From Lota lota (lineage: Eukaryota > Chordata > Actinopteri > Gadiformes > Lotidae), in NCBI GenBank assembly GCA_026745465.1, contig JACYXH010000744.1:62001-126000 (forward strand): a DNA stretch of 64,000 nt. Reading direction: 5' to 3'. The notes under the pieces are model-generated. The model searched no databases and was not told where the DNA came from. It saw only the letters and a list, made by a program, of their open reading frames with translations. Position 1 is the first letter of the stretch, and each line of letters begins with the position of its first letter. The position numbers and the translations under genes were made by a program. Of this stretch, positions 16,396 to 64,000 are shown one piece after another.

Positions 16396-16439
16396 TTTCA
16401 TGTTATATTTCAGTTTTTGTTGGTCAGTCGGACCCTGGG

Positions 16440-40107: not shown

Positions 40108-40554
40108 TAGTCACACATAGAAGTTGAACCGGAAACTTCCAACCGTGTTGTGGTTTAATTTGTAAAAAATATTTAGGAAATGACCGTGTATTGGAGACAA
40201 AAGACGGCTACTACCAAACTAGTTGCTTTACTGAACGGAAGTAAACAGCGCCACCTGCAACAAGCCCCGCGAACTCATTACCATGGCAACCTAATTAGTA
40301 CACCTACATGCTGGTGTGCATGGAAGCAAATCATAACGTTTTGAAGTTTTAAAAGCCATTTAATTTAGTATATATAAATGTAAAACACCATTGAATTCAT
40401 AACATTGACATATTATACTTTGAAGCCAAAATCATCTGAATTCATTCGTTTTGAATTCACCTCGGCAATCGAGACTGAACGTGATGGAACAGACTGCTGT
40501 CATGGTGGTTATGTTGTGTTACGAGCTTTTTTGAAGCCCTGAAACCTACTGTGC

Positions 40555-41716
40555 TTATTGAGGCCCGACTTTGATTATACATAACTGACATAAACCGTAC
40601 AATTTACCTGAGCCCCGTCCTTCTCCCTGTTGGCCATCGTTGGCTTTAATTCTCCAGCAGTTTGTTTTGATCACATGACTGACGGATGGCGCTCTGATAG
40701 GCCGGCAGTAGATTCGATTGCATTCTGTCTCTACTGCTTTGGCCTTGGAAGGCCCTGCTACTGCAGTTTGAAATTTTATGGCTTTAATTTTCTGGTCCAT
40801 ATTTTGACCACTTGAATATGAGTAATCAATATCGTATGTATATATATAGAGATATCTCGAATATATCAATTATCTTCAACTTGAATTTTTGTATCATAAT
40901 TAGTGAACGCATAATTATTTTATCGTGTTTTTTAAATGGTACAACTTGAAATGCCATATTTGAATTTCAAAGAGGTGATTTCAAAACGAATAAATTCAGA
41001 TGACCTTGTTTTTAAAGTATAATATTTATACGTTATGAATTCAATTGTGTTTACGTCTCGATGTACAAAGTATCATGTTACTACTTAGCCTGCTGATTTT
41101 GATATGAATTATGATGAGGAAACGGCTTAGTGATTAAGGATCTTCAAGTCCTTAACTGAGTTATTAAGTGATTAAGGAGCATGTGATGCTCCTTAATCAG
41201 GGAAAATGTGTCATCAACTAACAGTGGGGGCCAGAGACAGGGCTCTGGCAGGGAGGGGGAAACAGCATGAGGCAAAACCAAATGTAACTGTTTAAAGACT
41301 AACACTTTCCTCAACAGCGTGTAAAGACAGCTGTTTTTCATATATGGGGTCGAAAGGTCAAAAGGAGCCTGCGCCACGCCCATTATGAGAATTTAAAAAG
41401 TTAGAGGGGTGAGAGGTCACGAGATGGAGCATTATCCGAGGCTCTTTTAGTTACTTCCTGTAGGGCTAGAGGCCCTAAATGTATTATCTTACTTGTCCTT
41501 GAGGCCCTCTTTCATATGAAAGAAACCCCAGGTCTCTTTCTCACTCCCAAGTGTCCTTGACCCCTAGGTCACCTACTAATTACATAACTTCCTGTAGGGC
41601 TGGATGTACAGTATATTAGCTACTGTTTTAGTAAATCTTGATGCCCTGATTCATATAAAAGAGACCAGACGTCGTTATCTTACTCTCAAGTCATTCTGTG
41701 CACACACCATTAACGG
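40555..41716. other. Segment present in left arm only
   Basis: The right arm joins CTACTGTGCC directly to AGGGTTAATGGTGTG (near 58990). The left arm has about 1.16 kb between the matching points, and CTGTGC occurs at both edges. The segment includes a diverged inverted copy of 40370-40450 (at about 40950-41035). It also includes a 12 bp-arm hairpin CACACCATTAAC/GTTAATGGTGTG at about 41704-41730. Insertion in one arm or deletion in the other are both possible. Confidence 0.5.
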
Positions 41717-41750
41717 GGTTAATGGTGTGTTTGCATCACTTCCTGTAGGT

Positions 41751-42262
41751 TGTGGTGGGAAAATGACTCAAGGCCCATTCTGAGGTCAGCTTGCTAAAAC
41801 TAATCAGCTTTGATGTGCACACTATAGTGACCTATCTGCCTTTTCGAATATCTACCTCCCCACAGCTGTCTGTTTCTCCTGTATTCCTGCATGGTGCTCT
41901 GTTCCCATATGAGAAACCCCTGAGCAAGCTCCTTTTTCCATAACAATGTATCTGTGCCTGGCCTTGACTGTATACTCTCTCCCCAAACCAGGTGTCCGGC
42001 TTTAATTGGGCATTGAATCTGTTATAGACATTCAAATGGCGCCATCTAGTGTCATTTCTGAGATGTCGCTTGCCCCACTTTATAAAAAGACTTCCCTCCT
42101 GTCTTCGGGGCGCTTTTTTCTCGAGAACTCTGCTCTGCGCGGAGTTGCCTTTGAAATTGTCTCTTTTATGTGCTGCAGCATATGAAATAAATCAACTACG
42201 GATATCCATTTTGTCTTAGCCTTTAATCGAGCCAGCCACCAGTCATCTAATTTGCTACAACA
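41751..42262 (+). mobile_element. Solo LTR (endogenous retrovirus-like), 512 bp
   Basis: Starts TGTGGTGGG and ends GCTACAACA (TG...CA). It is flanked by the 4 bp direct repeat AGGT (41747-41750 and 42263-42266). The right arm of the palindrome has the empty site, with a single AGGT (CCTGTAGGTCTACG read from the minus strand near 58970). TATAAAAAG at 42081 and AATAAA at 42186-42191 are spaced as in an LTR U3-R region. A 4 bp duplication fits gammaretrovirus-like and related ERVs. There are no internal genes. Confidence 0.78.
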
Positions 42263-43729
42263 AGGTCTAGTACCCTCATGTTGATAATTGTAGTAATCTT
42301 TTGAAAGTCTTTTTAGTCTTCCTTTTACTTTATTGACGCATTAACACTTTAAAGCAGGATTAATTGGTCATGATTATCTTGTGCAACAACATGTTTTTAT
42401 AAAATTAACCTTTGGAATAAATGTTTGGGCGGAAGAAAAGCGGACATAAACTCCCTGTTTTCCCACAAAAACATGTCGGCCTGGTCCGTCCCAAAGACGA
42501 AAAAAGTCATCTGTGGGTCACTGGAAAATCTATGTTTTTATTGAAAGAACATCATCAGTTACATAAAATAACATATCATGACTTTCATATAACATACATA
42601 AGCTAGCAGCCCAGGTGACTAATGTTACACAACGCAAAACAACAATTCAAACAACATGCAAGCTGCATGGTTTCAGGGTCAGCAGCATCTATATGAATCA
42701 CTATGGCAACGATAGAAAACGTTCCATTAACTAACAAACTAAACATCCTCTATCTTCACTGACTGAAGATGACAACATTAAAATGAATATTCATCACTAG
42801 AAATGTTATCAAAGCACATTTTAATGTCGTAACTATCTTAAATGTTGCTTTTTCAACTGAGAATATAATGATTGTCATCCATTTTGTTTTGGCAGAACCT
42901 TGACATACGTGACGTATTGCTGTTTCTTCAAACAGTCGATAGGGGGCTAAAACGGTCATATGGGTCGTTTTCAAAGACCTCTACAAACAACTTATTCTGA
43001 CGTTTAGGTTGGAGATCACGTTTCATCGTTGATATTGTCAAAAAGTTAGGTTGATGGTCATTGAACAGCTTATCCAAGAGAGCCATGAATCAGAACTTTG
43101 TATGTTACTCTGTTAACTAAAGCTAGCCTGCTAACATTTCTGATAACTACAGCGGGGCAAACTATGTCATCTATTTATACATTCAGATTATTGGTCTTCT
43201 GGTCAGTGATATTAGGATGACACTAGCAAACAAACATTAAATATGTTACATTTATATGCAAAATAAAGACAAACCAGCACATTCACATCAGGAAAAAGTG
43301 AATCGTCAATATCAATACATAAATATTACCCCCACTTCAATTCCATTAAAACAACATACTCAATCAGAGTTTAAGATAAAACCCTACTGTGTGGATATAA
43401 TTTGTAAATCAGCTAAGCCAGACAGAGATATAAAAGCCAACAGATACTTGATTTAGTCTTTTGAAACCATCTTGAACTCACAATCTCCACATTTCAGATC
43501 AAAGGATTTATGCACGCACAACTGCTCATAAAGAAGTTCACTGATTATAAACTAAAGTATATGTATTCTATATGCTATTCAAGCACAAAATGTGGCCTGT
43601 CACAATGACCATAATGATGGAATGCAGAACTAGCTAGCTACCTCAGACACACTCTGAGCTACAGCATTCAGAAACTTCACTACTCAGGTCTTCTTCAGAA
43701 TCAGCAGCTTTGTTCCCCAGTGAGGCCAA

Positions 43730-46700
43730 TTAGGTGCAGCGAATTTGATTCTCTCTTGTGGAAGTATAGAAGCGCAACTTGTTCACTCCTTCTGTCGGAC
43801 CTGCGGAAATATAAATATAAGAAATGTAATGAAAGTGGCTGAAAAGACCTACAGCTCATTTAATTTATTCATACTCCTAGGTTGAGGGTAGTACATATGA
43901 GGACTTTTATTTTCCCTAACAGGAAGCTCAAACCTCTTACTGTTTCAAGCTGGTGCATGTCTTTACAGAAGGTTAAGCATATTTGGCTTTATAAGGACCT
44001 GGTAATGGCTCTATAGGCTGGACACCAACCTGTAAAACAGATGAAGTTAAGATGTTCTTCACAAGAGCGTGGCCTCCATGTGGATGGTTCCACACTGGAC
44101 ACGCCCCCACAGGGGCTGGAATGTTGTGAACCTTCGTCCCATTGGCTGAAGTCCATCGGGTCACCGGACATCCAAAACCAGGAGCTTCCTGAAAGTGACC
44201 TACCAACATTGAAAGAGATGAAAGAGTTACATGAGTGGAAGGAAGAATAATGTGGCCAAATATTTAGCTTTTGTTATTTTCATGGTATTGTTGATAAGAC
44301 AAAGTGATGGACGGACAGATGATCATAAGGACAGACTTGATTGCCTGATAGACACCAAGGTCTGGCCAGTACCTGCGCAGGCCCACCCAGAGGTGGCTGG
44401 TTAGTGGGAAGGGGGCGCGAGCCACCAGCTCATCAATCATCTCCTGGTCTTCTGGGCCCATGAGGCTCAGCAGGTCCCAGTGAGAGTCTCTGCAGTAGAG
44501 CAGGCCGTCTGACCAGCACAGCCGTGTCCCCACCAGAGTGATGTTCCTCCCCATCTCCTGAATGCTGACGGAGGGTGGAGGAGGCCCTAACTCTGGGGAA
44601 CCAAAAGACAGTGTGGGGGTGAGGGATTTCTACTCTCAGCCCTGTAAGTATCCCTTTATGTATCTTTGAGCAGAGACCTAATCTGTTACGATTACGAGAT
44701 TAGGACCCAAACGCAAGACAAGGAAACCAACAGGGTGCGGGTTGAAAAAGGGATTTATTGTCCAAAGGTACAGGCAAGGGCAAGGCAGGCGGGTAGTCCA
44801 GCAGGCAGTAGGCAGGCGGGGAGTCAGGCAGGCAGAGAGACGTAGACAGGCGGGTGGTCGGGCAGGCGAGGTTCAGGAAACAAGGAAGGCAGGCAGGAAC
44901 GAGGAACAGGAGCGGGAACAGGAACAGGAACAGGAACGAGAGCGAGGACAAGAACGGGAGCGGAACCCGTAACGGGAACAAGAACGGGAGTGGGACCCGA
45001 AAACAAGGAAGTGGCGGGGACGTAGTTATCATGGGAGATAACGAACACTACGAACTAGCACTGGCTTTGTGAGAAGCCAGTGCTTAAGTACTGTGGGGAG
45101 TGATTGGTGAAGAGCTGCAGGTGAGGGTAGACAGAGGGAGTGCACGTGGTGGCTAATTGACGGGAAGAGGTAAACAAAGAAGCACATGGTGAAGTGAGGC
45201 TGGTTGCCACTAGATGGCGGAGTTTGACGGAAACCGAGAGGGTCACGTTACATAATCCCTACCAACTATTAAGACATGTAGCAGACTCTTATACATTTAC
45301 AAAAGTGTAATTAGCGACACTAAATTGCCAATCAGTGTGGGATGTTTTTAAATGAGTACACAACACCTTCAGACACTTGGCAGTACTTTTCTCTCAGACA
45401 TCTCAGCACACTTGAACTCAACTGATGTGAAGGAATATGAGGTGTCTAAGACCATACAGAAAACAACTTACTTTGATACTTCACTCTGAAATATCACAAT
45501 ACAGAACAGTCATGTAGATCAGTGGTGCCAACCTTTGACTTTAGGTCGACCACTGAATTGTCATCAAGACCTTTTGCGGACCACCTCAGATGCAAACAGT
45601 AGAAAATAGATAAATACAAATGCAGTGGCTGACCAAAGAGTGCCAGCAAACCCTTTATACACAAGTATTACTGCAAGAAGGCCATGACCAGTGGGAAACA
45701 TATGTCAGCAACTTTGCTTATGCTCCCTGTGTTTATTCTTCAAACACAAAGCAACACAAAACAAAGCGACTGCAAAAAGCAAATACATATTTTTAACAGC
45801 AAACCATAATAATTTATTCACTGAATATTTATAAATTATTTAAAATGTTCTATGTTCTTTTTTCTATTATTGTAAATTATCCTCGTGTACCACCAGTGGT
45901 ACGCAGACCACCTGCAGTTCCCTCGTGTACCACCAGTGGTACGTGTATTACCTGCAGTACCCTCTTGTACCACCAGTGGTACGTGTACCACCTGCAGTAC
46001 CCTCATGTACCACCAGTGGTACGCAGACCACCTGCAGTACCCTCATGTACCACCAGTGGTACGTGTACCACCTGCAGTACCACCAGTGGTACTCGTACCA
46101 CATGCATTACCCTCGTGTACCACCAGTGGTACTCGTACCACCTGCAGTACCCTCGTGTACCACCAGTGGTACTCGTACCACCTGCAGTACCCTAATGCAG
46201 ACCACAGGGTGAAAACACTGTATGCAGATTGTGCTTTGGTGGATGGTTTTACCCAAAGTGTCTTACAATACTGATGGTGCATACATTGTAATAATAGGTA
46301 GCCCTGAGTGGGAATCAAACCCCTAACCCTGACAGTGTTAGTGCCATGCTCTACCAGTTGAGCTATAAGGAACATCAGCATTTGACTTTTGACCAATGAT
46401 GGTTGACCAACAGTGGTACTGGTACACCCATCCCCCTTTGATGATCATGTAATGATGGACTGGGTTCCTACCTCCGTACACTTTGACCTCACACAACTGC
46501 ACAGCGACTGCTTGACCAGAGGACTTGTAGAAGTTGATAAACCTTCCTTCCATTCCCCAACACTTGACACTCTGAGTCAAGCAGCTTGGGTCATCGTTGA
46601 TGATGGCACACCTGAGGAAAAGAGACAGAGAGAGAAGATACAGTAGTCTGGTGAAGGTATCAGAGACCAGATTCCAGTAGCTGGTGTGTGTCCAGGTGTA

Positions 46701-47628
46701 CTTGAGCAGAGCACTGGCTGTGTTCCCTTATTTTCTGGGAGTATAATATTCTATGCTATTTAGTCATTTACACTTTTATCCAAAGACACTTAAAAGCAGG
46801 TTGAGGTCATTAGGGATCAAACCCAGAACGTTTTGCTGGGAGTCTAACAGTATTGAGTGGAAGTAGGGGAGGTGACACCAGTGATTCACCTTGGATTGTC
46901 GTTACCGTTGTTCACCAGTGAATTCCCGATGAGTATTTCCGCGCCATTGAGCCTCTCCCTCCCGGCATTAATATTAGTGACCTGGATCTCTGACACCCTG
47001 TACACACCAGGCAGCTCCAGCCTCCACCATTGTTTGACCTGGAACTGGGTACAACTGCAGCTGTTGTGCTCCCACTGAGGGTCGGTGTTCCCATCGATGG
47101 CGTTTTCAGCCTCCCCGTCCCCGTACTGGTATGTTGTAGACTGAATAGCCGTGCCGCTCAACGCCAGGTTAATGCGGGATGCAGCTTAATGGAGAGTGGA
47201 ACCACAGAATAGTTTGTCAAGTTGCATTCCAGTGTTCGAAACAAATTGAAATACTTGCCGGATTGGATAACTTGTCATTGGCCCCTAAATGGGGTCACAT
47301 AGAAATACCTGAAAATCCAGGTGACTTCCACAGGAGGATGACAACACCTGGTGATGAGAAATACTATTTACTTAATAAAATAAATACTTCAGCTAATATT
47401 TACAAGCATATATCCTGCAACTATTGAATCTATTCAATATTTAAACTATTCGTGGTAGGAATCTTACACACGCCCACGATCACAAAAACATAGGAGGAGG
47501 TCAACTGTCAAAAGTTATGGCAGGTACATTTTTATTAATTCAATATTATGAACAGGATTATGATAAATACTGTAGTGCTGTGTGGAATACCTACCAATGA
47601 AACTGCAGATGAGACGACTGGACCCCAT
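43730..47628 (-). CDS. Secreted F-type lectin / C-type lectin-domain chimera, copy L
   Basis: Seven coding exons, all with GT/AG borders: 47628-47595, 47347-47309, 47184-46890, 46611-46472, 44592-44373, 44199-44030, 43800-43730. They sum to 969 bases, an intact frame of 322 residues. The order is: signal peptide (LICSFIGVVILLW core), F-type lectin (FTP) domain (GNTDP, WWRLELPGVYRVSEIQVTN, CAII, LCEVKVYG), short Pro-rich hinge (LGPPPPS), C-type lectin-like domain (LCWSDGLLYCR, HLWVGLRR, WFWMSGDP, FSQWDEGS, NFIC) and a 23-residue tail. The F-type ligand triad seems lost: Cys at the His position and INAGRER where RGDCCGER is usual. The CTLD lacks EPN/QPD and WND calcium motifs. A 5'UTR exon ends at 47854, with a second candidate at 49380. 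Polyadenylation signal AATAAA at 42542-42537. Likely secreted; ligand unknown. Confidence 0.86.
44684..45252. mobile_element. TG...CA insertion with 5 bp target duplication, 569 bp
   Basis: Starts TGTTACGATT and ends GTCACGTTACA. It is flanked by TAATC (44679-44683, 45253-45257). The right arm at about 56450 shows the uninterrupted sequence. Termini match as short inverted repeats (TGTTACG/TGTAACG). The interior is a GGCAGGCGGGTAG and GGAACAGGAACAGG low-complexity stretch without coding capacity. Solo LTR or non-autonomous LTR element are the likeliest readings. It sits in intron 4 of lectin copy L. Confidence 0.72.
45882..46195 (+). repeat. 40 bp minisatellite, ~8 copies, in lectin L intron 4
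   Basis: Unit TCGTGTACCACCAGTGGTAC plus GCAGACCACCTGCAGTTCCC. The partner intron has a shorter array at 55620-55825. Confidence 0.93.
46235..46390 (-). mobile_element. tRNA-derived SINE, copy in lectin L
   Basis: On the minus strand TTATAGCTCAACTGGTAGAG (A box) and GGGTTTGATTCCCA (near-consensus B box) form a tRNA-like head. The tail AAGACACTTTGGGTAAAACC is typical of fish SINEs. Same position as 55440-55590, so it predates the duplication. Confidence 0.78.
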
Positions 47629-47853
47629 GGTTCTGGAGAAACAACATGCCCAGACAATAGCTTATACCAGCTACTAGGTATACATTCCTTCACATTAACA
47701 TTATATTAAAAGTGAAAACAAATAGATCACTTGAAATGGAGCTATAAGTAACTGAAATATTACATTAATCTTCAGAGTCCAAAAATGAGGAGTCTACCAT
47801 TACAGAGCAATACAAAAAAAAAATTGTCTCTTTGACTTGAAGATGGTACTCAC

Positions 47854-49460
47854 CGGCAGAGTCTGTAGGTCCTTCTGTATGAATGAAGCGTCTGAATCTA
47901 GGATCAGCACAAGATAAACTTGAAAAGACTTAAGTAATCCAAAGGCTCTTCTTTGCAAACATTAGGGTTCTTACAAGGCATTGACGAGTCTCACAGAAAG
48001 TGTGAGAAACTAAGTGTGAGGCAGACGCGTCCGGGGCTCAGACACTAAAATGAGCAATGCCACGGTCCGGTCGTCAGTATACTCAGTGCCATACCTAATA
48101 GTCTATTCAAATAATGTTTGCAAATATCCACTGGTTTAGGCGGGGCACCAAAACAGCCTCATGATTATCGTTAACTGATTTAATAAAATGTAAGATTAAG
48201 CACAACTCCCAAAGGTACCATATGGTGAAGTGTCAGACATAACAATGGCTTCGCCCTGTCCATGTGAAACTCAATTTAAGGGTATATAACACATAGATGT
48301 CCCTTCATCCTTTGTGCAAAGTGTTGACGTGTCTCACACAAAGTGTGAGGCATTTCATTTGGCTAATGGCTCGCTGCATACGCATCAAGGAGGGTGGACA
48401 GTAAAATGAGCAATGCCACGTTCAGGTCGTCAGTATACTTGGTGCCATACCTAATAGTCTATTCAAATAATGTTAGCAAATATCCATTGCCCTTCACATG
48501 TCCCTGTTCAAGCCGGTGCAAAGCGATCTGTAGAGACAGACGTCAGGGCAAGGTACGTAGCAGTGGGGCCATAATCATTTTAAAGTAAGATACACATCTG
48601 CTATCTGAACATGTAAACCAAAACCGACGTTTAAAAAATAAATGTTTTACATAGAATTACACATAATTGGACAATTTAAATTCTAAATTCTAAAATGGTA
48701 CTTATTAACAATTTATAATGAATACATGGAGAAAATAATACCACCATGTATTTCTTTCCCTTTTAATATCTTTGCATGTCAAATTGCAGAGGAAGGTACA
48801 CAGGCAGACAGAGAAAGACAAGGCTATAGCTAGTAATTAAAACAACTCTTTGACATCTCAACCAATCAAAGGGAAGTCTGTTTATTACATGTGAAGCATG
48901 ATAATAGTGCCAGCAGTGGCAAACCATGACCCTACACAACGTGTTTTAGTGGTACCATTAAAGGGATACGCCCTGATGATACCATGTGTATAGGTACAAG
49001 CATTTCTAGGACCCTAGGTTTATCAAAGACTTTCAAAGTGAGCTACTCACACTTTGGCTTTCTAAATTACGTTTGAGAAATTGATTCTTTTAGCTGGTTA
49101 GATGGTTAGAATTAACCATCACCATCATTGAATTATCTTAATACGACGAGACCCATGTTATATATTTTGTACATCTGTAAGAATATCTGAAATTATACAT
49201 TCTACATTCTATTAAAAGTGAAAATAAATAGATAGTTTGAGATAGAGCCATAAGTAATACACAAATTACATTCATCTTAGGTGTCCAGAAATGAGGAGTC
49301 TACCATTACAGAGTGATACAATAAAATCTTAAAATGGTTTAGTCTCTCTGACTTGAAGATGGTACTCACCGGCAGAGTCTGTAGGTCCTTCTGCTACGAA
49401 TGAGGCGTCTGAATCTAGGATCAGCACCTTATACACTTGGATTTGCATTAATTCATGCAA
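47854..49460 (-). promoter_or_regulatory. Upstream region of lectin L with two copies of the first exon
   Basis: The sequence CTGCCG|GTGAGTACCATCTTC (minus strand) marks a 5'UTR exon end at 47854 and again at 49380. Each copy is preceded by the same GACGCTTCATTC/GACGCCTCATTC-AGATCC-type exon. A diverged upstream block (GAGCAATGCCACGG, TATTCAAATAATGTT) occurs at about 48050-48130 and 48400-48490. Alternative first exons are possible. Confidence 0.55.
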
Positions 49461-52400
49461 AGGCTCTTGTATGCAAATACTAATCCTTAAGCCCTCACTG
49501 TGAGAGCGACTATGGGGTTATCGGCAGGAAAGGAAAGGTGAGAGATATGAGGTGAATTTAACAAAAACATTGCTCTCTTTATTACAACAAACTCCTTTAA
49601 GTTTGAGATACAGGGGAAAACCGGTAAGCAAGGCTAGATGAGTGTTTAATTAATTTAATGTAGAAATTTTACATATTATACCTTTAAGCATGTCTAACCT
49701 AATACCTATACTTAACCATCTAACCAGCTAAAATAAGCAATTTCTAATATCGTACTTTAGAAAGTCAAAGTGTGAGAAGCTCACTTTGATAGTCTTAAAG
49801 CAAAAAACACACAAAAAAACCTAGGGATCTAGAAATGCTTGTATTTATACATATCGTATTTTCAAGGCGTATCCCTTTAATGGTACCACTAAAACACATT
49901 GTCTAGGGTCGTGGTTTGCCACTGCTGGCACTATTATCATGCTGATAATATAATAAACAAACTTCCCTTTGATTGGTTGAGATGTCAATGAGTTGTTTTC
50001 ATTACTAGCTAGGGCCGTGTCTTTCTCTGTCTGCCTCTCTACCTTCCTCTGCAATTTGATATGCAAAAATATTAAATGGGAGGGAAATACATGGTTCTAT
50101 TTCGTCCTCCATGTATTCATTATAAATTGGTAATAAGTATACTTTTTTTTTTTGAATTGTCCAATTTAATGTAGTTCTAATTAAAACATTTATTTTTCAA
50201 ACTTCAGTTTTGGTTAACATGTTTAGGCTAATTACACTTGTCCTCATGAGTAAAAGAGATATCAGATGTGTATCTTACTTAAAAATGATTATGGCCCACT
50301 GCTACGTACCTTGCCCTGACGTCAGTCTCTACATATCACTTTGCATCGGCTCACACTGGCTCTAGGCAGGAAGAACAACCAAATGACAGGATAAAGTATG
50401 CAGATAAAATGGAAACATCACTAGCAGCTGCACCCATTGAACAGGGACATTCGAAGGACGTTGGCTATTTGCAAACATTATTTGTTTAGGCCTTCACTGA
50501 CTACCGGGACATTGCTAGTTTTACTGTGTGACCTCACCGGACGCCGCCAATGCAGAGAGCCATCGCAAGCTGCAAATGACTTTGTGTGAGACAAGTCAAC
50601 GTGTTGCCTGAAGGATCATGGGAAACCTCTCTGTGTGTTATATTGTTGTGTGATGAAGGGGAAAACAAACACACAAGTGTCTCAACTCTATTTTCTTGTT
50701 GTTCCTTTAAATTGAGTTTCACGTGGACAAAGCAAACCCCTTTTTATGACGCCTCACAATTTTTATGTTTTAATGCAGAAATGTTACATATTATACCTGT
50801 AAGTAAAAACAATACAAAATAATTCAAAATGTTTATTCTTTTTCAGATTCATGTGTTTTTCTTTGTGTATTTGGGAGCCAGGAGCGGTCTACAATCTAAA
50901 TGGTGTCATAAAGAGACAGGCACAGTCAACCAGAGGAGATATTCTCATAGATCTACAAAGTATGTTACATAGGTCTAGTCGTTTTTACATAATTTAATGT
51001 TTAAATGTTAGATATTATACCTTTAACCTTGTCTAACCCAATACCTACACCTAACCATTTAACCAGCTAAAATAAGTAATTGATCAACCTTAATTTAGAA
51101 AGCCGACTTGATAGTCTTAAAGGTAAAACACGCACAAAGACCTAGGGTCCTAGAAATGTTTGTACTTATACACATGGCATCATCAGGTCGTATCCCTTTA
51201 ATGGTACCACTAAGACACATTGTCTAGGGTGGTGGTTTGCCACTGCTGGCACTATTATCATGCTGACAATATAATAAACAGACTTCCCTTTGATTGGTTG
51301 AGATGTCAATGAGTTGTTTTAATGACTAGCTAGGGCCTTGTCTTTCTCTGTCTGCCAACATATTAAATGGGAGAGAAATACGTGGCTGTATTTCTTCCTC
51401 CATGTATTCATTATAAATTGGTAATAAGTATACTTTTTTAATTTAATTTATAATGTTTTATAATTAGAATAAGAATCATCCAATTATATGTAGTTCTAAG
51501 TAAAACATTTATTTTTCAAACTTTAGTTTTGGTTAACATGTTCAGGCTACTTACACTTGTCCTCGTGAGTAAAATAGATATCAGATGTGTATCTTACTTT
51601 AAAATGATTATGGCCCCACTGCTACGTACCTTGCCCTGACGTCAGTCTCTACATATCACTTTGCATCGGCTCACACTGGCTCTAGGCAGGAAGAACAACC
51701 AAATGACAGGATAAAGTATGCAGATCAAATGGAAACATCACTAGCAGCTGCACCCATTGAACAGGGACATTCGAAGGACGTTGGCTATTTGCAAACATTA
51801 TTTGTATAGGCCTTGTGAGATGCGTCAACGCTTTGCCTGAAGGATCATGGGAAATATCTCTTTGTGTTATATTGTTGTGTGATGAAGGGAAAATGGACAC
51901 ACAAGTGTCTGTACTCAATTTTCTTGTTTTACCTTTAAATTGAGTTTCATATGGGCATTTTGTTTCTCCAGAACCATGGGGTCCAGTCGTCTCATCTGCA
52001 GTTTCATTGGTAGGTATTCCACACAGCACTACAGTATTTATCATTATCCAGTTCATTATACCGAATTAATACAAATGAACCTGCCATAACTTTTGAATGT
52101 CGACCTCCTGCTATGTTATTGTGATCATGGGCGTGTAAGAGTCCTACCACGAATAGTTAGAATATTTCATAGATACAATAGTTGCAGGATCAATGCTTGC
52201 AAATAATAGCTGAAGTATTTATTTTATTAAGTAAATAATATTTTCCTCATCACCAGGTGTTGTGGCCCTCCTGTGGAAGTCACCTGGATTTTCAGGTATT
52301 TCTATGTGCCCCATTTAGGGGCCTATGACTAGTTATAATTATTAGTATTAGTATTGTGTTTTGAACAATAGAATGCAACTTGACAAACTACTCTGTGCTT

Positions 52401-53480
52401 TCAGTCTCCATTAAGCACCCATTGAACAGGGACATTGGAAGGACGTTGGCTATTTGCAAACATTATTTGTTTAGGCCTTCACTGACTACCGGGACATTGC
52501 TAGTTTTACTGTGTGACCTCACCGGACGCCGCCAATGCAGAGAGCCATCGCAAGCTGCAAATGACTTTGTGTGAGACACGTCAACGCGTTGCCTGAAGGA
52601 TCATGGGAAATCTCTGTGTGTGGTATATTGTTATGTGATGAGTGTATGTATGTGTGTATATGAGTGAACATATGTGTATTGTTTTGAAAATGTTTCACTT
52701 ACAGGTATAATATGTAACATTTCTGCATTAAAACACAAACACAGCGAGGCTTCAGACAAGGGGTTCGCTCTGTTCATGGGAAACTCAATTTAAAGGAACA
52801 ACAAGAAAAGAGTGGAGACACTTGCGTGTCTGTTTCCCTTCACCACACAACAATATACCACACAGAGAGATTTCCCATGATCCTTCCGGCAATGCGTTGA
52901 CGTGTCTCACAAGGCCTAAACAAATAATGTTTGCAAATAGCCAACGTCCTTCGAATGTCCCTGATCAATGGGTGCAGCTGCTAGTGATGTTTCCATTTGA
53001 TCTGCATACTTTATCCTGTCATTTGGTTGTTCTTCCTGCCTAGAGCCAGTGTGAGCCGATGCAAAGTGATATGTAGAGACAGACGTCAGGGCAAGGTATG
53101 TAGCAGTGGGGCCATAATCATTTTTAAGTAAGATACACATCTGATATCTCTTTTACTCATGAGGACAAGTGTAATCAGCCTAAACATGTTAACCAAAACT
53201 GAAGTTTGAAAAATAAATGTTTTACTTAGAATAACATATAATTGGACAATTCTAATTATAAGATTATACTTATTAGCCATTTATAATGAATACATGCAGG
53301 AAGAAATACAACCATATATTTCTCTCCCATTGAATATATTTGCATATCAAGTTGTAGAGGAAGGTACAGAGGCAAAGAGAAAGACAAAGCCCTAAATAGC
53401 AATGAAAACAACTGTCTTTCTCTGTCTGCCTCTGTACCTTCCTCTTGCAATTTGATATGCACAAATATTCAATGGGAGAG
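48650..53480. repeat. Central nest of ~0.8 kb repeats in alternating orientation
   Basis: Copies lie at about 48650-49100 (-), 49700-50500 (+), 50990-51850 (+) and 52700-53480 (-). Shared landmarks are GGTACCACTAAAACACATTG, TTTGATTGGTTGAGATGTCA, TGCCCTGACGTCAGTCTC and TGGCTATTTGCAAACATTAT. Each copy carries CCAAT (ATTGG) and CRE-like TGACGTCA sequence. It is unclear whether this is a mobile element or duplicated upstream DNA of the lectin genes. Confidence 0.75.
51972..52420 (+). pseudogene. Third lectin copy, exons 1 and 2 only
   Basis: Exon 1 (51972-52009, ATG at 51976) and exon 2 (52257-52295) have the same sequence, phase and splice sites as the intact genes: a 34-base coding piece ending TTCATTG|GTAGG and a 39-base piece ending TTTTCAG|GTATT. 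GCC replaces GTC in exon 2 (Val to Ala). The exon 3 acceptor region (CTCCATTAAGC) is present at about 52410. Sequence then switches to ACCCATTGAACAGGGACATT of the central repeat, so the F-type domain is lost. It is a broken copy made by rearrangement. Confidence 0.82.
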
Positions 53481-54174
53481 AAATACATGGTGGTATTTCT
53501 TCCTCCATGTATTCATTGTAAATTGGTAGTGAGTACCATTTTAGAATTTAGAATTTACCTTTTAAAAATAATAATAATAATAATAATATAATAATAATAA
53601 TTTAAAAATATACCTTGTACCTTGCCCTGACGTCTGTCTCTACAGATCACTTTGCACCGGCTTGAACAGGGGCATGTGAAGAGCAATGGATATTTGCAAA
53701 CATTATTTGAATAGACTATTAGGTAGTAAGTATACTGGCGACCGGACCGTGGCATTGCTCATTTTAGTGTCTGAGCCCCGGACGCGTCTGCCTCACACTT
53801 TGTGTCTCACACTTTCTGTGAGACTCGTCAACGCCTTGTAAGAAGAGCCTTTGGATTACTTAAGTCTTTTCAAGTTTATCTTGTGCTGATCCTAGATTCA
53901 GACGCTTCATTCATACAGAAGGACCTACAGACTCTGCCGGTGAGTACCATATTCAAATCAGAGAGACAAACTATTTTAGGATTATTTTGTTATTGATTTG
54001 TAATGGTAGACTCCTCATTTTTGGACTCCTAAGATTAATGTAATATTTCAGTTACTTATAGCTCCATCTCAAGTGATCTATTCGTTTTCACTTTTAATAG
54101 AATGTTAATATGAAGGAATGTATACCTAGTAGCTAGTATTATCTATTGTCTGAGCATGTTGTTTCTCCAGAACC

Positions 54175-57100
54175 ATGGGGTCCAGTCGTCTCATCTGCAG
54201 TTTCATTGGTAGGTATTCCACACAGCACTACAGTATTTATCATTATCCAGTTCATTATATTGAATTAATAAAAATGTACCTGCCATAACATTTGACAGTT
54301 GACCTCCTCCTATGTTATTGTCATCGTGGGCGTGTGTAAGATTCCTACCACAGATATATATACATATGACATATATTTCGTTGATACAATAATTGCAGGA
54401 TATATGCTCATAAATATTAGCTGATAAAAGCTGAAGTATTTATTTTATTAAGTAAATAGTATTTCCTCATCACCAGGTGTTGTGGTCCTCCTGTGGAAGT
54501 CACCTGGATTTTCAGGTATTTCTATGTGCCCCATTTAGGGGCTGATGACAAGTTATAATTATTATTTTAAGTATTTTAATGTGTTTAAACACTAGAATGC
54601 AACTTGACAAACTATTCTGTGGTTCCACTCTCCATTAAGCTGCATCCCGCATTAACCTGGCGTTGAGCGGCATGGCTGTTCAGTCTACAACCTACTCGGA
54701 CATGGGGAAGGCTGAACACTCCATCGATGGGAACACCGACCCTGACTGGTTTCACAACAGCTGCAGCTCTACCGCCTATCAGGCCATTCCATGGTGGAGG
54801 CTGGAGCTGCCTGGTGTGTACAGAGTGTCAGAGATCCAGGTCACTAATATGAATTACGAGAGGTTCAGGCTCAATGGAGTGGAAATACTCATCGGGAATT
54901 CACTGGAGAACAACGGCAACGACAATCCAAGGTGAATCACTGGTTTCACCTACCTTACTTCTGCTAAATACTGTTAGACTCCCAGCAAAACGTCCTGGCT
55001 TTGATCCCTAATGACCTCGACCTGCTTTTAAGTGTCTTTGGATAAAAGTGTAAATGACTAAATAGCATAGAATATTGTACTCCCAGAAAATAAGGGAACA
55101 TAACCAGTGCTCTGCTCAAGTACACCTGGACACACACCAGCTACTGGAATCTGGTCTCTGATACCTTCATCAGACTACTGTATCTTCTCTCTCTGTCTCT
55201 TTTCCTCAGGTGTGCCATCATCAAAGATGACCCAGGCTGCTTTACTCAGACTGTCAAGTGTTGGGGAATGGAAGGAAGGTTTATCAACTTCTACAAGAAC
55301 TCTGCTGCAACATACCCTTTGTCGTTGTGTGAGGTCAAAGTGTACGGAGGTAGGAACCCAGTCCATCATTACATGATCATCAAAGGGTGATGGGTAAACC
55401 AGTACCACTGTTGGTCAACCATCATTTGTCAAAAGTCAAATGCTGCTGTTCCTTATAGCTCAACAGGTAGAGCATGGCATTCACACTGCCAGGGTTAGGG
55501 GTTTGATTCCCACTTGGGGCTACCTATTATAACAATGTATGCACCGACAGTATTGTAAGACACTTTGGGTAAAAGCATCCACCAAAGCACAATCTGCATA
55601 CAGTGTTTTAAACCTGTGGTCTGCGTACCACTGGTGGTACACAAGGGTACTGCATGTTGTACATGAGGGTACTGCAGGTGGTCTGAATACCACTGGTGGT
55701 ATATGAGGGTACTGCAGGTGGTACGTGAGGGTACTGCAGGTGCTACACATACCACTGGTGGTACACGAGGGTACTGCAGGTGGTACACGTACCACTGGTG
55801 GTACACGAGGGTACTGCAGGTGGAATGTGGGATTTTCTCCATGATATGGTCAAATGTACAATAATAGAAAAACGAATATAGATCATTTTAAATACAAAAA
55901 TACCTTTAAAATGTATTACGTTTTTTAGTGTTTTTAAAGATTTGCTTTGATTTGGTTTTGCTGAATATACATAAAAGGGAGCATAAGCAGTGTTGCTGAC
56001 TTCTCATTTCCACTGTCTCCCACTGGTCATGGCCTTCTGGCAGCAATACTTGTGTATAAAGGGTTTGCTGGCACTCTTGGGTCAGCCACTGCATTTGTAT
56101 TTATCTAAGTTCTACCGTTTCCATCTGAGGGTGTCCAAGAAAGATCTTGATGACAATTTAGTGGTCCACCTAAAGTCAAAGGTTGGCACCACTGATCTAC
56201 AGGACTGTTCTGTATTGTGATATTTCAGAGTGAAGTATCAAAGTAGTAAGTTGTTTTCTGTATGGTCCAAGACACCTCATAGCCCTTCACATCAGTTGAG
56301 TTCAAGTGTGCTGAGATGTCTGAGAGAAAAGTACTGCCAAGTGTCTGAAGGTGTTGTGTACTCATTTAAAAACATCCCACACTGATTGGTGATTTAGTGT
56401 CGCTAATTACACTTTTGTAAATGTAAAAGTGTCTGCTAAATGTCTTAATAGTGGGTAGGGATTGGGTGTCTGCTCAAAGATACCTAAAGGGATACTTACA
56501 GGGCTGAGAGTAGAAATCCCTCAGCCCCACACTGTCTTTTGGTTCCCCAGAGTTAGGGCCTCCTCCACCCTCCGTCAGCATTCAGGAGATGGGGAGGAAC
56601 ATCACACTGGTGGGGACACGGCTGTGCTGGTCAGACGCCCTGCTCTACTGCAGAGACTCTCACTGGGACCTGCTGAGCCTCATGGGCCCAGAAGACCAGG
56701 AGATGATTGATGAGCTGGTGGCTCACGCCCCCTTCCCACTAACCAGCCACCTCTGGGTGGGCCTGCGCAGGTACTGGCCAGACCTTGGTGTCTATCAGGC
56801 AATCAAGTCTGTCCTTATGATCATCTGTCCGTCCATCACTTTGTCTTATCAAAAATACCATGAAACTAACAAAAGCTAAATATTTGGCCACATTATTCTT
56901 CCTTCCACCCAGGTAACTCTTTATTCTCTTTCAATGTTGGTAGGTCTCTTTCAGGAAACTCCTGGTTTTGGATGTCCGGTGACCCGATGGACTTCAGCCA
57001 ATGGGACGAAGGCTCACAACATTCCAGCCCCTGTGGGGGCGTGTCCAGCATGGAACCTTCCACATGGAGGCCACGCTCTTGTGAAGAACATCTTAACTTC

Positions 57101-57413
57101 ATCTGTTTTACAGGTTGGTGTCCAGCCTATAGAGCCATTACCAGGTCCTTATAAATCCAAATATGCTTAACCTTCTGTAAATGCATGCACTAGCTTGAAA
57201 CAGTTAGAGGTTTGAACTTCCTGTTAGGGAAAATAAAAGTCCTCATATGTACTACGCTCAACCTAGGAGTCTGAATAAATTAAATGAGCTGTAGGTATTT
57301 TCAGCCACTTTCATTACATTTCTTATATTTCTATTTCCGCAGGTCAGACAGAAGGAGTGAACAAGCTGCGCTTCTATACTTCCACAAGAGAGAATCAAAT
57401 TCGCTGCACCTAA
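54175..57413 (+). CDS. Secreted F-type lectin / C-type lectin-domain chimera, copy R
   Basis: Coding exons 54175-54208, 54477-54515, 54640-54931, 55210-55349, 56551-56770, 56944-57113, 57343-57413 sum to 966 bases, an intact 321-residue frame. The ATG lies four bases into its exon; a 5'UTR exon ends at 53939 (CTGCCG|GTGAGT). Residues 1-25 are a signal peptide, about 26-168 an F-type lectin (FTP) domain (WWRLEL at 76-81, VSEIQVTN at 87-94, LCEVKVYG near the end), about 169-180 a Pro-rich hinge, about 185-299 a C-type lectin-like domain (C194, C202, WVGLRR near 236-242, WFWMSGDP 249-256, C296), then a 22-residue tail. A sequon NIT is at 185. The fucose triad is not canonical: Ser at the His position and MNYERFR where RGDCCGER is usual. 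The CTLD lacks calcium motifs. Possible AATAAA at 58612. Such genes usually act in humoral recognition; the ligand here is unknown. Confidence 0.87.
55440..55590 (+). mobile_element. tRNA-derived SINE, copy in lectin R
   Basis: TTATAGCTCAACAGGTAGAG head with A box, B-box-like GGTTTGATTCC, and AAGACACTTTGGGTAAAAGC tail. Orthologous in position to 46235-46390. Confidence 0.78.
55620..55825 (-). repeat. Minisatellite in lectin R intron 4
   Basis: About five units of GTACCACTGGTGGTAC plus ACGAGGGTACTGCAGGTG. The matching array in copy L has about eight. Confidence 0.92.
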
Positions 57414-59490
57414 TTGGCCTCACTGGGGAACATAGCTGCTGATTCTGAAGAAGACCTGAGTAGTGAAGTTTCTGAATGCTGTAGCTCAGTGTGTCTGAGG
57501 TAGCTAGCTAGTTCTGCATTCCTTCATTATGGGCGTTGTGACAGGCCACATTTTGTGCTAGAATAGCATATAGAATACATTTACTTTAGTTTATAATCAG
57601 TGAATTTCTTCTTGAGCAGATATAGTTGTGCATGCATCAATCCTTTGATCTGAAATGAGGAGATTGTGAGTTCAAAATGGTTTCAAAACACTAAATCAAG
57701 TATCTGTTGGCTTTTATATCTCTGTCTGGCTTAGCTGATTTACAAATTATATCCACACAGTAAGGTTTTATCTTAAACTCTGATTGAGTAGGTTGTTTTA
57801 ATGGAATTGAAGTGGGGGTTATATTTATGTATTGATATTGGTGATTCACTTTTTCCTGATGTGAATGTGCTGGTTTGTCTTTATTTTGCATATAAATGTA
57901 ACATATTTAATGTTTGTTTGATAGTGTCATCCTAATATCACTGACCAGAAGACCAATAATCTGAATGTATAAATAGATGCCATAGTTTGCCCCGCTGTAG
58001 TTATCAGAAATGTTAGCAGGCTAGCTTTAGTTAACAGAGTAACAAAAAGCTCTGATTCATGGCTCTCTTGGATAAGCTGTTCAATGACCATCAACCTATC
58101 CACGTAACTTTTTGACAATATCAACGATGAAACGTGATCTCCAACCTAAACGTCAGAATAGGTTGTTTGTAGAGGTCTTTGAAAACGACCCATATGACAG
58201 TTTTAGCCCCCTATCGACTGTTTGAAGAAACAGCAATACGTCAAGTATGTCAAGGTTCTGCCAAAACAAAATGGATGACAATCATTATATTCTCAGTGGA
58301 AAAAGCAACATTTTAAGATAACTACGGCATTAAAATGTGCTTTGATAAAATTTCTAGTGATGAATATTCATTTTAATGTTGTAATCTTCAGTCAGTGAAC
58401 GTAGAGTATGTTTAGTTTGTTAGTTAATGCAACTTTTTCTATCGTTGCCATGGTGATTCATATAGATGCTGCTAACCCTGAAACCACGCAGCTTGCATGT
58501 TGTTTGAATTGTTGTTTTGCGTTGTGTAACATTAGCCATCTAGGCTGCTGTGTTATGTGTGTTAAATGAAAGTCATGATATGTTATTTTATGTAACTGAT
58601 GATGTTCTTTCAATAAAAACACAGATTTTAGAGTGACCCACGGATGACATATTTCTTCTTTGGGACGGACCAGGCCAACATGTTTTTGTGGGAAAACAGG
58701 GAGTTTATGTCTGCTTTGCTTCCGCCAAAAAATATATTCCAAAGGTTAATTTTATAAAAACATGGATAATAAGCTAATAAGATATAATAATAATAATTAT
58801 AATTATATTATTATTATTATTATTATTATCTTATAATAATATAAGATAATCATGACCAATTAATCCCGCTTTAAATTGTTAATGCGTCAATAAAGTAAAA
58901 GGAAGACTAAAAAGACTTTCAAAAGATTACTACAATTATCAACATGAGGGTCGTAGACCTACAGGAAGTGATGCAAACACACCATTAACCCTGGCACAGT
59001 AGGTTTCAGGGCTTCAAAAAAACTCGTAACACAACATAACCACCATGACAGCAGTCTGTTCCATCACGTTCAGTCTCGATTGCCGAGGTGAATTCAAAAC
59101 GAATGAATTCAGATGACTTTGGCTTCAAAGTATAATATGTAAATGTTATGAATTCAATGGTGTTTTACATTTCCATTTACAAAATTAAATGGCTTTTAAA
59201 ACTTCAAAACGTTATGATTTGCTTCCATGCACACCTGCATGTAGGTGTACTAATTAGGTTGCCATGGTAATGAGTTCGCGGGGCTTATTGCAGGTGGCGC
59301 TGTTTACTTCAGTTCAGTAAAGCAGCTAGTTTGGTAGTAGCCGTCTTTTGTCTCCAATACACGGTCATTTCCTCAATTAGTTTTACAAATTAAACCACAA
59401 CACGGTTGGAAGTTTCCGGTTCAACTTATATGTGTGACTGTTGAAGTCATTAAAATAATCAATACTTAACTAAAGATTATGATTGGTTTG

Positions 59491-60117
59491 TTAGGACTGA
59501 TGTTGGCTTTTTCTCATCATCTGATGAACTTTCTTCCCCAGCTGGGCTGTCTTCACTTCAAATTCCTCCTTTAGAGGTACAACAGGATGGGACTTGTGGT
59601 CCGTCTCTGTGCAGAACTGACACACACACACCTGCTCTGTCTGGCAGAAGAGCTCCAGAAGTCGGTCGTGTTTCTTACACATCCTGTCTTCCAGACGGTC
59701 CATAGGGTCGACCAGCTGATGTTTCTTCAGACATGCAACTCTCTGATGAGGCTCCAGGTGGGTGTGGCAGTAGGAGGTAAAACACACTAGGCAGGACTTC
59801 ACGGCCTTCAGCTGGGTCCCAGTACAGACATCACAGGGAACTTCTCCTGGTTCAACACAAGGCTGCTCTTTGACACGTACAGAACTTCTAAACTGATCAA
59901 CCATCCCTGATATGAAGGTATTGACCTGTAAATATGGTCTTGTGTGTAACAGCTTGTTGCAAACAGGACATTTGCACTGGACTTGGTCATCCCAGAACGA
60001 TGTAATACAGGTTCTACAGAAGTTGTGTCCACATGGTGTGGAAACTGGGCTGTTGAACAGATCCCGACAGATGGAACATGAAAAGTTCTCTTCAGACCAG
60101 GAAGTGCTGGACGCCAT
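59491..60117 (-). CDS. TRIM-family E3 ligase fragment: RING + B-boxes, truncated (finTRIM-like)
   Basis: The chosen start at 60117 (MASSTSWSEENFSC) lies three bases after a splice acceptor (TCTCTTCTAG, intron end 60120), so a non-coding exon precedes it. The frame gives 208 residues. RING is C14-x2-C17, C29-x-H31, C34-x2-C37, C50-x2-C53, then a B-box1-like CDVC...CLVC...HLEPH segment. B-box2 (CKKHDRLLELFC, CQFC, DHKSH) and the first turns of a coiled coil (VKTAQLGKKVHQMM) follow. In relatives the coiled coil continues and a B30.2 domain follows in later exons. Here the family-like sequence stops at about HQMM and TAA follows at 59493-59491, about 50 bases outside the palindrome edge. No donor site is visible. 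It could make a short RING/B-box protein, or be a pseudogene cut by rearrangement. Family role: ubiquitin ligase, often antiviral in fish. Confidence 0.78.
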   Translation of the reverse strand: MASSTSWSEENFSCSICRDLFNSPVSTPCGHNFCRTCITSFWDDQVQCKCPVCNKLLHTRPYLQVNTFISGMVDQFRSSVRVKEQPCVEPGEVPCDVCTGTQLKAVKSCLVCFTSYCHTHLEPHQRVACLKKHQLVDPMDRLEDRMCKKHDRLLELFCQTEQVCVCQFCTETDHKSHPVVPLKEEFEVKTAQLGKKVHQMMRKSQHQS

Positions 60118-60904
60118 TCCTAGAAGAGATAAAAAATAAAAAATAAACGTTATGTTAAAAACAAAGACATTCATTTTCTAATGGTAAAATAACTGTTTAT
60201 AACTAGTTATAATGCATCTATATTCATACATGCGTTGTTATTACAAGCAGAGCCCTTCATCCAACAGGTCGGTACAACATCAATCCCAACATGTGCCTCC
60301 TGCTCCGTATGAACACACACGTCGCTATGGACTCTCACACCGCTACCAACGCGGACGAAAGAGCCCGCTGCCCTCACCATGCGTCCTCCTCATGAAGACT
60401 GATACTTTAATAAATGCGCATGCGTCCTCCTCACGAAGACCACATGATACTTTCATAGCTGCGATTTCGTCCTCCTCATGAAGACCGATACTTTAATAGA
60501 GGTGAAACCAACGTTACAATTCCATTGTTGTCCCGCCACGTCGGATTCAACCAACACATCCAGAGCTGCGCTCCAAACAGCACGTCACCCACCAAGGATG
60601 TGTTGGTATAACCCGACGAGGCGACACAACAAGTGGATTTAAAGGCTTGTTTCGCTGCGCATCCACAAAGTCTCAGCGCGTTTTTCCATGAGGACACATA
60701 CGTTAGCTCAGTGATCTCTTTTAAATCACTGATTCCGCATTGGAAAGTGGTTTTAAAGACTAAAAGAGTAGTTTGGAAACAGAGTAAGTCCATAGCCACG
60801 TGTGTTGATACGGAGCGCAGGAGTACAGCACGCTACAGTACAACATGGCGCCCTGCAGACAGGACGGCTTCAACGAGGATTATGGCTCAACATGTTGGAC
60901 TCAC

Positions 60905-63156: not shown

Positions 63157-63187
63157 TCTAAGTCTAAGTCTAAGTCTAAGTCTAAGT
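63157..63187 (+). repeat. (CTAAGT)n hexamer, ~5 copies
   Basis: Short perfect hexamer run directly in front of the 88 bp satellite. Confidence 0.93.
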
Positions 63188-63590
63188 ATGCTTATATAGT
63201 TATAGGAACCAACGAAAAATAAAGAATGAAACTGTTGAGAACTCTTCTATTAAACCTTCATTACCCTTTATAATTAGGCTTATATAGTTATAGGAACCAA
63301 CGAAAAATAAAGAATAAAACTGTTGAGAACTCTTCTATTAAACCTTCATTACCCTTTATAATTAGGCTTATATAGTTATAGGAACCAACGAATAATAAAG
63401 AATAAAGCTGTTGAGAACTCTTCTATTAAACCTTCATTACCTTTATAATTAGGCTTATATAGTTATAGGAACCAACGAATAATAAAGAATAAAGCTGTTG
63501 AGAACTCTTCTATTAAACCTTCACTACCCTTTATAATTAGGCTGATATAGTTATAGGAACGAATAATAAAGAATAAAGCTGTTGAGAACT
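63187..63590 (-). repeat. 88 bp satellite, ~4.5 copies, inverted relative to 11.3 kb
   Basis: Reverse complement of the unit at 11315-11899 (GGCTTATATAGTTATAGG, GAGAACTCTTCTATTA). The first two units have AAAAATAAAG where others have AATAATAAAG, and the last unit has an internal deletion. Confidence 0.94.
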
Positions 63591-64000
63591 CTAGCCATAC
63601 TCTTGGTGCATCGCGATGCGTCTCATACACAGAACACAGATTATTGTATTTTTATAGGTCTATATTCCTACAGTTTGAGACAAATTCTCGCTCTGAACCA
63701 CAACCAGGGTTTTCTTTCTGCATTATGTGATTATTCTAGTAACGTTGACTAAAGAGCATAGGTTACTAAGTTTAAGATCATAGAAGACATACTAAGACGG
63801 AACAAGATAAGTGTTTACATTGGTAATGATAAATATTGTAGGTAATATAATTATATAGAATAATGAGGACTGTCAATAACCTCCTATTTATAACAGCCTA
63901 CTTTTATATATAACAAGTATATATTTAAAGTAATAATAACTCAAGTAAAAGTAGTCATCAGATAATGACTTGAGGAAGAGTAAGAAAGTATCTAGTGAAA
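63590..64000. other. No gene seen
   Basis: AT-rich sequence to the window end without a recognisable frame. Confidence 0.5.

Follow-up and report, generated by a model that had tools for sequence, protein, structure and literature searches.

Structure of the gene pair

The window analysed here is a stretch of 64,000 nucleotides from the gadiform fish Lota lota (assembly GCA_026745465.1, contig JACYXH010000744.1, positions 62,001 to 126,000 of the forward strand); all positions are counted from its first letter. Between 43730 and 57413, which are the ends of two stop codons, it holds two genes that point away from each other, and each of them encodes an F-type lectin (FTL) domain followed by a C-type lectin-like domain (CTLD). 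The pair belongs to a family of about 300 FTL-CTLD genes in this genome, as judged from first-look candidates, in which amino acid change is focused on the ligand pocket of the FTL domain.

We rebuilt both genes exon by exon and obtained seven coding exons in each case, specifying 321 amino acids on the plus strand and 322 on the minus strand. All 12 introns between coding exons, counted over both genes, are of the GT-AG type and no stop codon interrupts either frame. This bears out the earlier note on this DNA, which had described two seven-coding-exon genes with open frames and clean splice sites. The coding exons are of near-equal size in the two genes (34, 39, 292/295, 140, 220, 170 and 71 nucleotides). 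Exons 1 and 2 encode a leader-like peptide, exons 3 and 4 the FTL domain, exons 5 and 6 the CTLD and exon 7 a short tail.

For the plus-strand gene the coding part of exon 1, with the start codon and the first half of the leader, lies at 54175..54208 in an exon that starts at 54171 after a splice acceptor, and exon 2 (54477..54515 in the rebuilt gene model) supplies the remaining leader. The first part of the FTL domain is encoded by exon 3 (54640..54931), which contains the hypervariable codons of the loops labelled CDR1, CDR2 (with position 52, the place of His52) and CDR4; one more variable loop falls in exon 4 (55210..55349), which encodes the second part. According to the gene model and Pfam, exon 5 (56551..56770) covers a linker and the first part of the CTLD and exon 6 (56944..57113) its second part, and the coding tail and stop codon are in exon 7 (57343..57413). 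On the minus strand the corresponding positions are 47595..47628 for the coding part of exon 1, 47309..47347 for exon 2, 46890..47184 and 46472..46611 for the two FTL exons, 44373..44592 for the linker and first part of the CTLD, 44030..44199 for its second part and 43730..43800 for the tail with the stop codon.

Both genes likely have an untranslated exon upstream of the coding exons because they share the donor CTCTGCCG/GTGAGTACC, with predicted exon ends at 53939 on the plus strand and 47854 on the minus strand. The probable untranslated exon of the plus-strand gene is placed at 53881..53939 (3' end 53939, start nominal), with a donor that is repeated on both arms of the inverted duplication described below, and that of the minus-strand gene at 47854..47915 (3' end 47854, 5' end nominal).

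Domain identity and predicted binding features

A Pfam search, which the earlier note had proposed as a check, placed both domains above the curated cut-offs in both proteins: the FTL domain (PF22633) was found with E values of 1.1e-12 and 2.4e-15 and the CTLD (PF00059) with 6.5e-11 and 2.4e-09. Among PDB sequences the minus-strand protein matched FBP32 (3cqo, E 2.3e-61), eel agglutinin (1k12) and the CTLDs of LY75 and the mannose receptor. The FTL domain matched 3cqo with E 1e-61 and 1k12 with E 3.8e-23, and the best matches of the CTLD were domains of the IgY-receptor, LY75, PLA2R and MRC1 type. The same two FTL structures, 3cqo and 1k12, were the top Foldseek matches of the AlphaFold2 (AF2) model of a homologue from Gadus (P0002), which stands in here for the window proteins. 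Its predicted local distance difference test (pLDDT) scores were 74-91 per 10-residue block over residues 31-170 and averaged 61.8 overall; the CTLD part of the model was poor (pLDDT 27-60), so that only the FTL part was used and the CTLD assignment rests on sequence.

Judged by eye from the translations, the leader MGSSRLICSFIGVV(V/I)LLWKSPGFSA resembles a signal peptide and no long hydrophobic stretch follows it; the window proteins may be secreted.

The predicted binding sites depart from the classical ones. The 2017 review PMC5712786, here and below cited from the part of its text that was available, gives the fucose-binding motif of FTLs as HX24RXDX4(R/K), which in eel agglutinin (AAA) corresponds to His52, Arg79, Asp81 and Arg86. 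Aligned to AAA, the plus-strand protein has Ser, Met, Asn and Arg at these four positions and the minus-strand protein Cys, Ile, Asn and Arg, so the motif is absent from both, as is the Cys82-Cys83 pair of AAA in the same alignment. For the cation motif h2DGx, where h is V, A or I (PMC5712786), AIDGN of the minus-strand protein fits and the plus-strand protein reads SIDGN, with Ser at the first place. The CTLDs, read by eye, show WDEGSQHSSPCGG and STWRPRSC at the places where EPN or QPD and WND would be expected, and neither of these tripeptide motifs was seen there. Calcium-dependent sugar-binding C-type lectins typically carry EPN or QPD together with WND. The earlier note had spoken of two sugar-recognition folds in one protein; the two folds stand, and the sugar binding is called into question for FTL domains that lack His52 and Arg79 and for a CTLD that lacks these tripeptides.

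Inverted duplication around the pair

The pair sits in an inverted duplication at 40109..59439. Matching arm pieces, 80.7-96.4% identical, extend inward from 40109-40554 and 58994-59439, and the genes on them point apart. Gene models, Pfam and arm alignment therefore agree with the earlier description of a head-to-head pair of FTL-CTLD chimeras within a palindrome, in what is now known to be a teleost. In the centre, small inverted copies with 75.6-92.7% identity form a patchwork. It includes a spare copy of the untranslated exon on the minus strand, nearer the centre than the one assigned to the gene (49370..49430, ending at 49370, 5' end nominal), and a spare fragment with exons 1 and 2 on the plus strand (51972..52295), whose similarity stops at about 52416, where exon 3 would start. 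We also considered whether the palindrome is an assembly foldback. A read that folds back on itself would give arms of nearly 100% identity, whereas the arm pieces differ by about 4-19%, which rules this out; the duplication is genuine and did not arise recently.

Intron 4 of both genes contains a minisatellite with a 40-bp unit that includes GTACCACCAGTGGTAC (45881-46193 and 55616-55823). The variable FTL exons are on one side of it and the constrained CTLD exons on the other, and it is a possible exchange point. In the plus-strand gene the same intron also holds a tRNA-like match on the plus strand (55451-55519, RF00005, 35.5 bits), perhaps a tRNA-derived repeat. Just beyond the right arm of the palindrome, at 59491-60177 on the minus strand, there is a frame with a RING and a B-box domain that resembles the first exon of a TRIM-type gene such as a finTRIM.

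Size and intactness of the family

We searched the genome (575,287,041 bases in 867 contigs, the window being C744:62001-126000) for further copies. FTL exon 3 gave 298 first-look candidates with a DNA query and 318 and 310 with protein queries, of which 40, 150 and 150, respectively, were scored; the CTLD exon gave 307, of which 150 were scored. Every scored candidate matched. The first-look counts of the search tool are lower bounds for large families, and the unscored entries are candidates as opposed to confirmed copies. The merged list has 206 distinct FTL exons that were scored, spread over 107 contigs. The pair is not special in this genome but one of about 300 copies.

Most of the copies examined appear intact. 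There was no internal stop in the 150 + 150 protein-scored FTL exons, many of which are common to both lists, and 149 of the 150 scored CTLD exons were also free of internal stops; the scored lists put the best matches first and hence favour intact copies. For 20 loci that were fetched by DNA similarity, exons 3 to 7 were found in order in all cases and all seven exons in 19. Fourteen are intact throughout: none of the seven exons is missing, the splice sites are good and the frame is open. The other loci comprise L012, L014 and L015, in which changes in the length of exon 3 break the frame, L023 with a stop, L020 with a bad exon boundary and L027, which lacks exon 2. RAG1 served as a control and gave two adjacent matches of one gene at one place (contig C838). 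A doubling of the assembly across the whole genome is thus not supported, though some haplotigs may remain.

Divergent pairs as the usual arrangement

Neighbouring scored FTL exons that are at most 15 kb apart are arranged divergently in 23 of 25 cases, with one tandem and one convergent case (binomial test against 1/4, p 2.5e-12; as some units were copied recently, the cases are less independent than this value assumes). When like-spaced units were merged in a 24-pair list, 14 of 16 were still divergent (p 2.6e-7). At spacings of 15-40 kb the excess is gone, with nine convergent, seven tandem and five divergent cases. Neighbours are defined here within the scored list; further copies that were not scored may be situated in between. 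Given the proportion among close neighbours, the head-to-head pair in the window can be regarded as an example of the usual arrangement.

Variation and selection in the FTL pocket

The FTL set consisted of 60 sequences, namely 58 loci (L009-L066) and the two window genes. Five sequences with stops were dropped and the remaining 55 correspond to 40 distinct proteins. The alignment was numbered on AAA as in PMC5712786. That source names eleven contact residues, two of which (26 and 27) fall in a gap of the family, leaving nine positions: 23, 45, 46, 52, 79, 81, 82, 83 and 86. The loop ranges, above all the loop of exon 4, were picked after viewing the alignment.

Variation is strongly concentrated at the contact positions. 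Their mean entropy is 1.60 bits compared to 0.55 bits over all 143 columns (permutation p 1.2e-4). Position 52, the His of the fucose triad, is occupied by C, S, H, L, V, A, F or Q among the copies and position 83 by nine different residues, and position 81 is Asn in 39 of the 40 distinct domains. The complete triad of His52, Arg79 and Arg86 occurs in seven of the 40 and in neither window gene.

The ratio of nonsynonymous to synonymous divergence (dN/dS) is 1.91 for the contact codons (sequence bootstrap 1.39-2.80) and 0.59 for the 98 other codons of the scaffold (0.48-0.68). The three loop ranges together give 1.36 (1.13-1.65) and the exon-4 loop alone 1.97 (1.61-2.53). For 20 disjoint pairs of sequences the ratios were 2.08 at the contacts, 1.57 in the loops, 1.83 in the exon-4 loop and 0.36 in the rest. 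In these pairs the nonsynonymous excess over the neutral expectation has p 0.016 for the contacts and p 0.00065 for all loops, and contacts differ from the rest with p 3e-9 (Fisher test). The dN of the contact codons, 0.50, was reached in none of 5000 draws of nine random codons and is far above the divergence of introns 1-3 (0.07-0.13). We also considered whether exon 3 as a whole is more divergent than the introns and rejected this (0.100 compared to 0.099, 0.127 and 0.070 for introns 1-3); only the pocket codons exceed the introns. Changes in an FTL pocket can mean either new specificities or lost binding (PMC5712786), and the selection results favour new specificities, as far as sequence can indicate this.

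Constraint on the CTLD and reassortment of parts

The CTLD provides a built-in control, with the same genes, the same synonymous divergence and half the amino acid change. The two domains were compared in 18 genes in which both are open (16 fetched loci and the two window genes); four of the 22 genes available (20 fetched and two window genes) were dropped for broken FTL frames (L012, L014, L015 and L023). L020 was kept in the CTLD set despite its altered exon 5, which raises the dN of the CTLD and works against the contrast. For the FTL domain and the CTLD, respectively, dS was 0.086 and 0.084, dN 0.100 and 0.048, and dN/dS 1.16 and 0.57.

Across genes, similarity in the FTL part is weakly correlated with similarity in the CTLD part (Spearman rho 0.18), and L009 and L010 encode an identical FTL protein joined to different CTLDs. 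Because of these two observations we conclude that FTL and CTLD parts have been reassorted. The linkage between exons 3 and 4 is tighter (rho 0.30).

Other features of the window

A second large palindrome occupies 1-6409 and 12578-19580, with 97.6% identity over about 3.1 kb in its best arm piece. Its outer arms contain an open frame with weak similarity to reverse transcriptase (PF00078, below the cut-off; the right-arm copy was tested). On the minus strand at 26194-27444, near retroelement-like frames, a GIY-YIG nuclease frame (PF01541) runs into a 78-bp repeat with 10.8 perfect copies (26367-27208); this is presumably a Penelope-type element. Two tandem arrays were also seen. An 88-bp repeat is present at 11314-11900 and 63183-63592 in opposite orientations, about 51 kb apart and 97-99% identical, and a perfect 96-bp array (13.1 copies, 100%) at 19475-20732 is open on both strands, with frames of 474 and 588 amino acids.

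Interpretation and alternative explanations

The sequence data are best explained, and in our judgement quite probably so, by a germline-encoded repertoire of secreted recognition proteins that combine a diversifying FTL domain with a constrained CTLD. What one would look for in a diversified repertoire was found in the form of many loci, apparent diversifying selection at the ligand site and a conserved scaffold, as judged from first-look counts and pairwise selection estimates. The two window genes would then belong to a very large multigene family whose FTL-CTLD proteins are probably secreted and which may have grown by repeated duplication of divergent-pair units. Inverted pairs and repeats would favour gene conversion and unequal exchange and could in this way reassort FTL and CTLD exons. 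We infer that the genes are expressed and that the FTL domain acts as the ligand-selecting part, so that the glycans or other surface ligands bound would differ from copy to copy. The CTLD may be a common assembly or docking part, possibly bringing the proteins into oligomers, and probably does not bind sugar itself. Jointly, in plasma or mucus, the proteins might serve as a repertoire for innate recognition.

Several observations weigh against this interpretation. The divergence of exon 3 overall is not above that of its introns, and it is surpassed by that of the upstream 300 bp (0.24) and of the first part of intron 4 (0.16). The dS is also raised in the variable loops (0.26 compared to 0.10) and some of the excess may consequently stem from old lineages or from conversion tracts. 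Random sets of nine codons reach the contact dN/dS in 12% of draws, and the selection figures come from pairwise counting as opposed to a site-likelihood test. Reshuffling between exons 3 and 4 is modest: only one of 38 exon-3 types is combined with more than one exon-4 type, and five of 34 exon-4 types are combined with more than one exon-3 type, the difference being a single residue in three of the five. Nor is the family alone in having lost His52, as His was found in 41 of 83 FTL-only domains of other species in a rough tally. The sequences analysed are the best matches to three queries and not a random sample. Finally, like-spaced units recur (5.34-5.39 kb on six contigs and 9.07 kb on three), and for this reason the copy count may be inflated by haplotype duplicates.

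If most copies were such assembly duplicates, or haplotigs, of a small family, we would expect what is indeed seen, namely near-identical like-spaced units on several contigs and copy-bearing contigs of stated size that are all below 600 kb; yet C57 and C469 have copies at positions above 1 Mb. The explanation is unlikely in view of the single RAG1 gene, the 40 distinct intact FTL proteins among 60 sequences and identities down to 76% within the 18-gene set. We regard it as slightly less probable still that constraint was relaxed and the family is decaying after massive duplication, the loss of fucose residues being a simple loss of function. At least one member of the triad is lacking in 33 of the 40 distinct domains, six of the 20 fetched loci have a frameshift, stop, bad splice site or missing exon, and the contact dN/dS is not extreme among random codon sets, as mentioned above. 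Relaxation alone, however, does not give a contact dN above both dS and intron divergence, and the observed value of 0.50 exceeds the dS of every codon class tallied (maximum 0.26) and the intron divergence (0.07-0.16). The dN/dS of scaffold (0.59) and CTLD (0.57) and the nearly complete freedom from stops of the scored exons also argue against decay.

A gamete-recognition family, in which the FTL pocket diversifies through sexual conflict or sperm-egg matching and not through immunity, would account for the pocket as well. In oyster bindin, an FTL, eight sites of the pocket are under positive selection, an intron within the domain recombines and some isoforms have lost the basic triad (PMC5712786). 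The present family shares the change focused on the pocket and the loss of the triad, and recombination inside its FTL domain is modest. The bindins, however, are a small number of single-copy genes with tandem FTL repeats (PMC5712786), as opposed to hundreds of loci with one FTL domain and one CTLD, and the same source, in its available part, treats fish FTLs chiefly as immune-type lectins. We consider a gamete role about as improbable as an excess of haplotigs. Two points favour an immune role: serum lectins are among the fish FTLs, 3cqo being described as from striped bass serum, and Atlantic cod lacks presentation by class II of the major histocompatibility complex (MHC) (PMC7759675, available part). 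It is very improbable that the CTLD is the working part, for instance of a mannose-receptor-like or antifreeze type, and the FTL domain a variable spacer. The constraint on the CTLD would fit such a role. In some fish the type II antifreeze proteins are CTLDs. The variation of the FTL domain is concentrated at the ligand pocket, however, and the closest CTLD matches are of the IgY-receptor, LY75, PLA2R and MRC1 type.

We therefore retain the secreted recognition repertoire as the preferred explanation. Fish FTLs have mucosal roles. More tentatively, and with considerable doubt, the family might be a vertebrate, germline-encoded counterpart of antibodies made of soluble lectins: hundreds of loci with a near-constant CTLD and leader, an FTL fucose pocket made hypervariable and diversity kept up by divergent-pair duplication and gene conversion, which in gadiforms may be part of what replaced adaptive recognition. 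If true, about 300 probably secreted variable lectins would be a concrete part of the answer to how fish without MHC class II presentation recognise pathogens.

Comparison with known systems

Teleost proteins that combine a CTLD with an FTL domain have already been described (Bishnoi et al., cited in the available part of PMC5712786), and the architecture is therefore not novel; what is novel is the pocket variation from copy to copy, and not the loss of His52 alone. No report of an expansion of FTL-CTLD genes was found in the literature searched, a scope outside which most subscription journals and supplements fall, and no word beginning with 'lectin' stands in the main text of PMC10611466, on the burbot transcriptome, or of PMC13011446, a codfish genome study.

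The closest relatives are found in gadids. Seven database proteins of Gadus, Arctogadus and Boreogadus (P0002, P0003, P0004, P0006, P0009, P0010 and P0012), which may be gene predictions, have both domains in one chain, a length of 315-323 amino acids and 68-81% identity. Together with the order of exons 3 to 7 kept in all 20 fetched loci, they lend indirect support to the joining of exons 4 and 5, on which the earlier note had made its claim depend. Homologues from Gadus morhua (P0002, P0013), Arctogadus (P0003), Boreogadus (P0004) and G. chalcogrammus (P0006) share the architecture and the C-terminal tail. Several variants per species are among the matches listed, with whole-protein identities of 65-81% to the minus-strand gene. 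Other teleosts have the same order of one FTL domain and then one CTLD, and the proteins of Dicentrarchus labrax (P0034), Thunnus maccoyii (P0035) and Poecilia latipinna (P0045) are of similar length with 45-49% identity over 89-94% of the query. Each such species accounts for one or two of the 120 matches listed, compared to about 300 loci here.

The binding residues also differ between the groups. In alignment A1 the non-gadiform FTL-CTLD proteins that cover both positions keep His52 and Arg79 in eight of eight cases, unlike the window proteins, and His52 is kept in four of nine gadid rows and replaced in five. This distribution would fit an ancestor that bound fucose, with a pocket that was freed and subsequently diversified in the cod lineage. 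A rough tally over the database matches gave His52 in 18 of 49 gadiform domains, 16 of 17 non-gadiform FTL-CTLD domains and 41 of 83 domains of FTL-only proteins, and Arg79 in 43 of 49, 15 of 17 and 62 of 83, respectively; it was made with a regular expression that left seven proteins unparsed and handled tandem FTL domains poorly, so its parsing is unreliable and the hand-read alignment A1 is preferred.

With AAA (1k12) and striped bass FBP32 (3cqo) the window proteins have the FTL fold in common. The solved chains of both were matched over their FTL domains only, and the window proteins are without the His52, Arg79 and Cys82-Cys83 pair of AAA. Drosophila CG9095 (furrowed) combines an FTL domain with a CTLD in one protein, as is the case here, and its CTLD is judged unlikely to bind sugar; it differs in having CCP domains and a predicted transmembrane segment as well (PMC5712786). 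The sperm bindin of oysters, an F-lectin, resembles the family in the positive selection on its pocket, in recombination and in the loss of the triad in some isoforms, and differs in being an invertebrate gamete protein that is encoded by few genes with one to five tandem FTL repeats (PMC5712786). If our interpretation is true, the Lota lota family would be a vertebrate parallel to oyster bindin that is reached by way of many loci instead of few.

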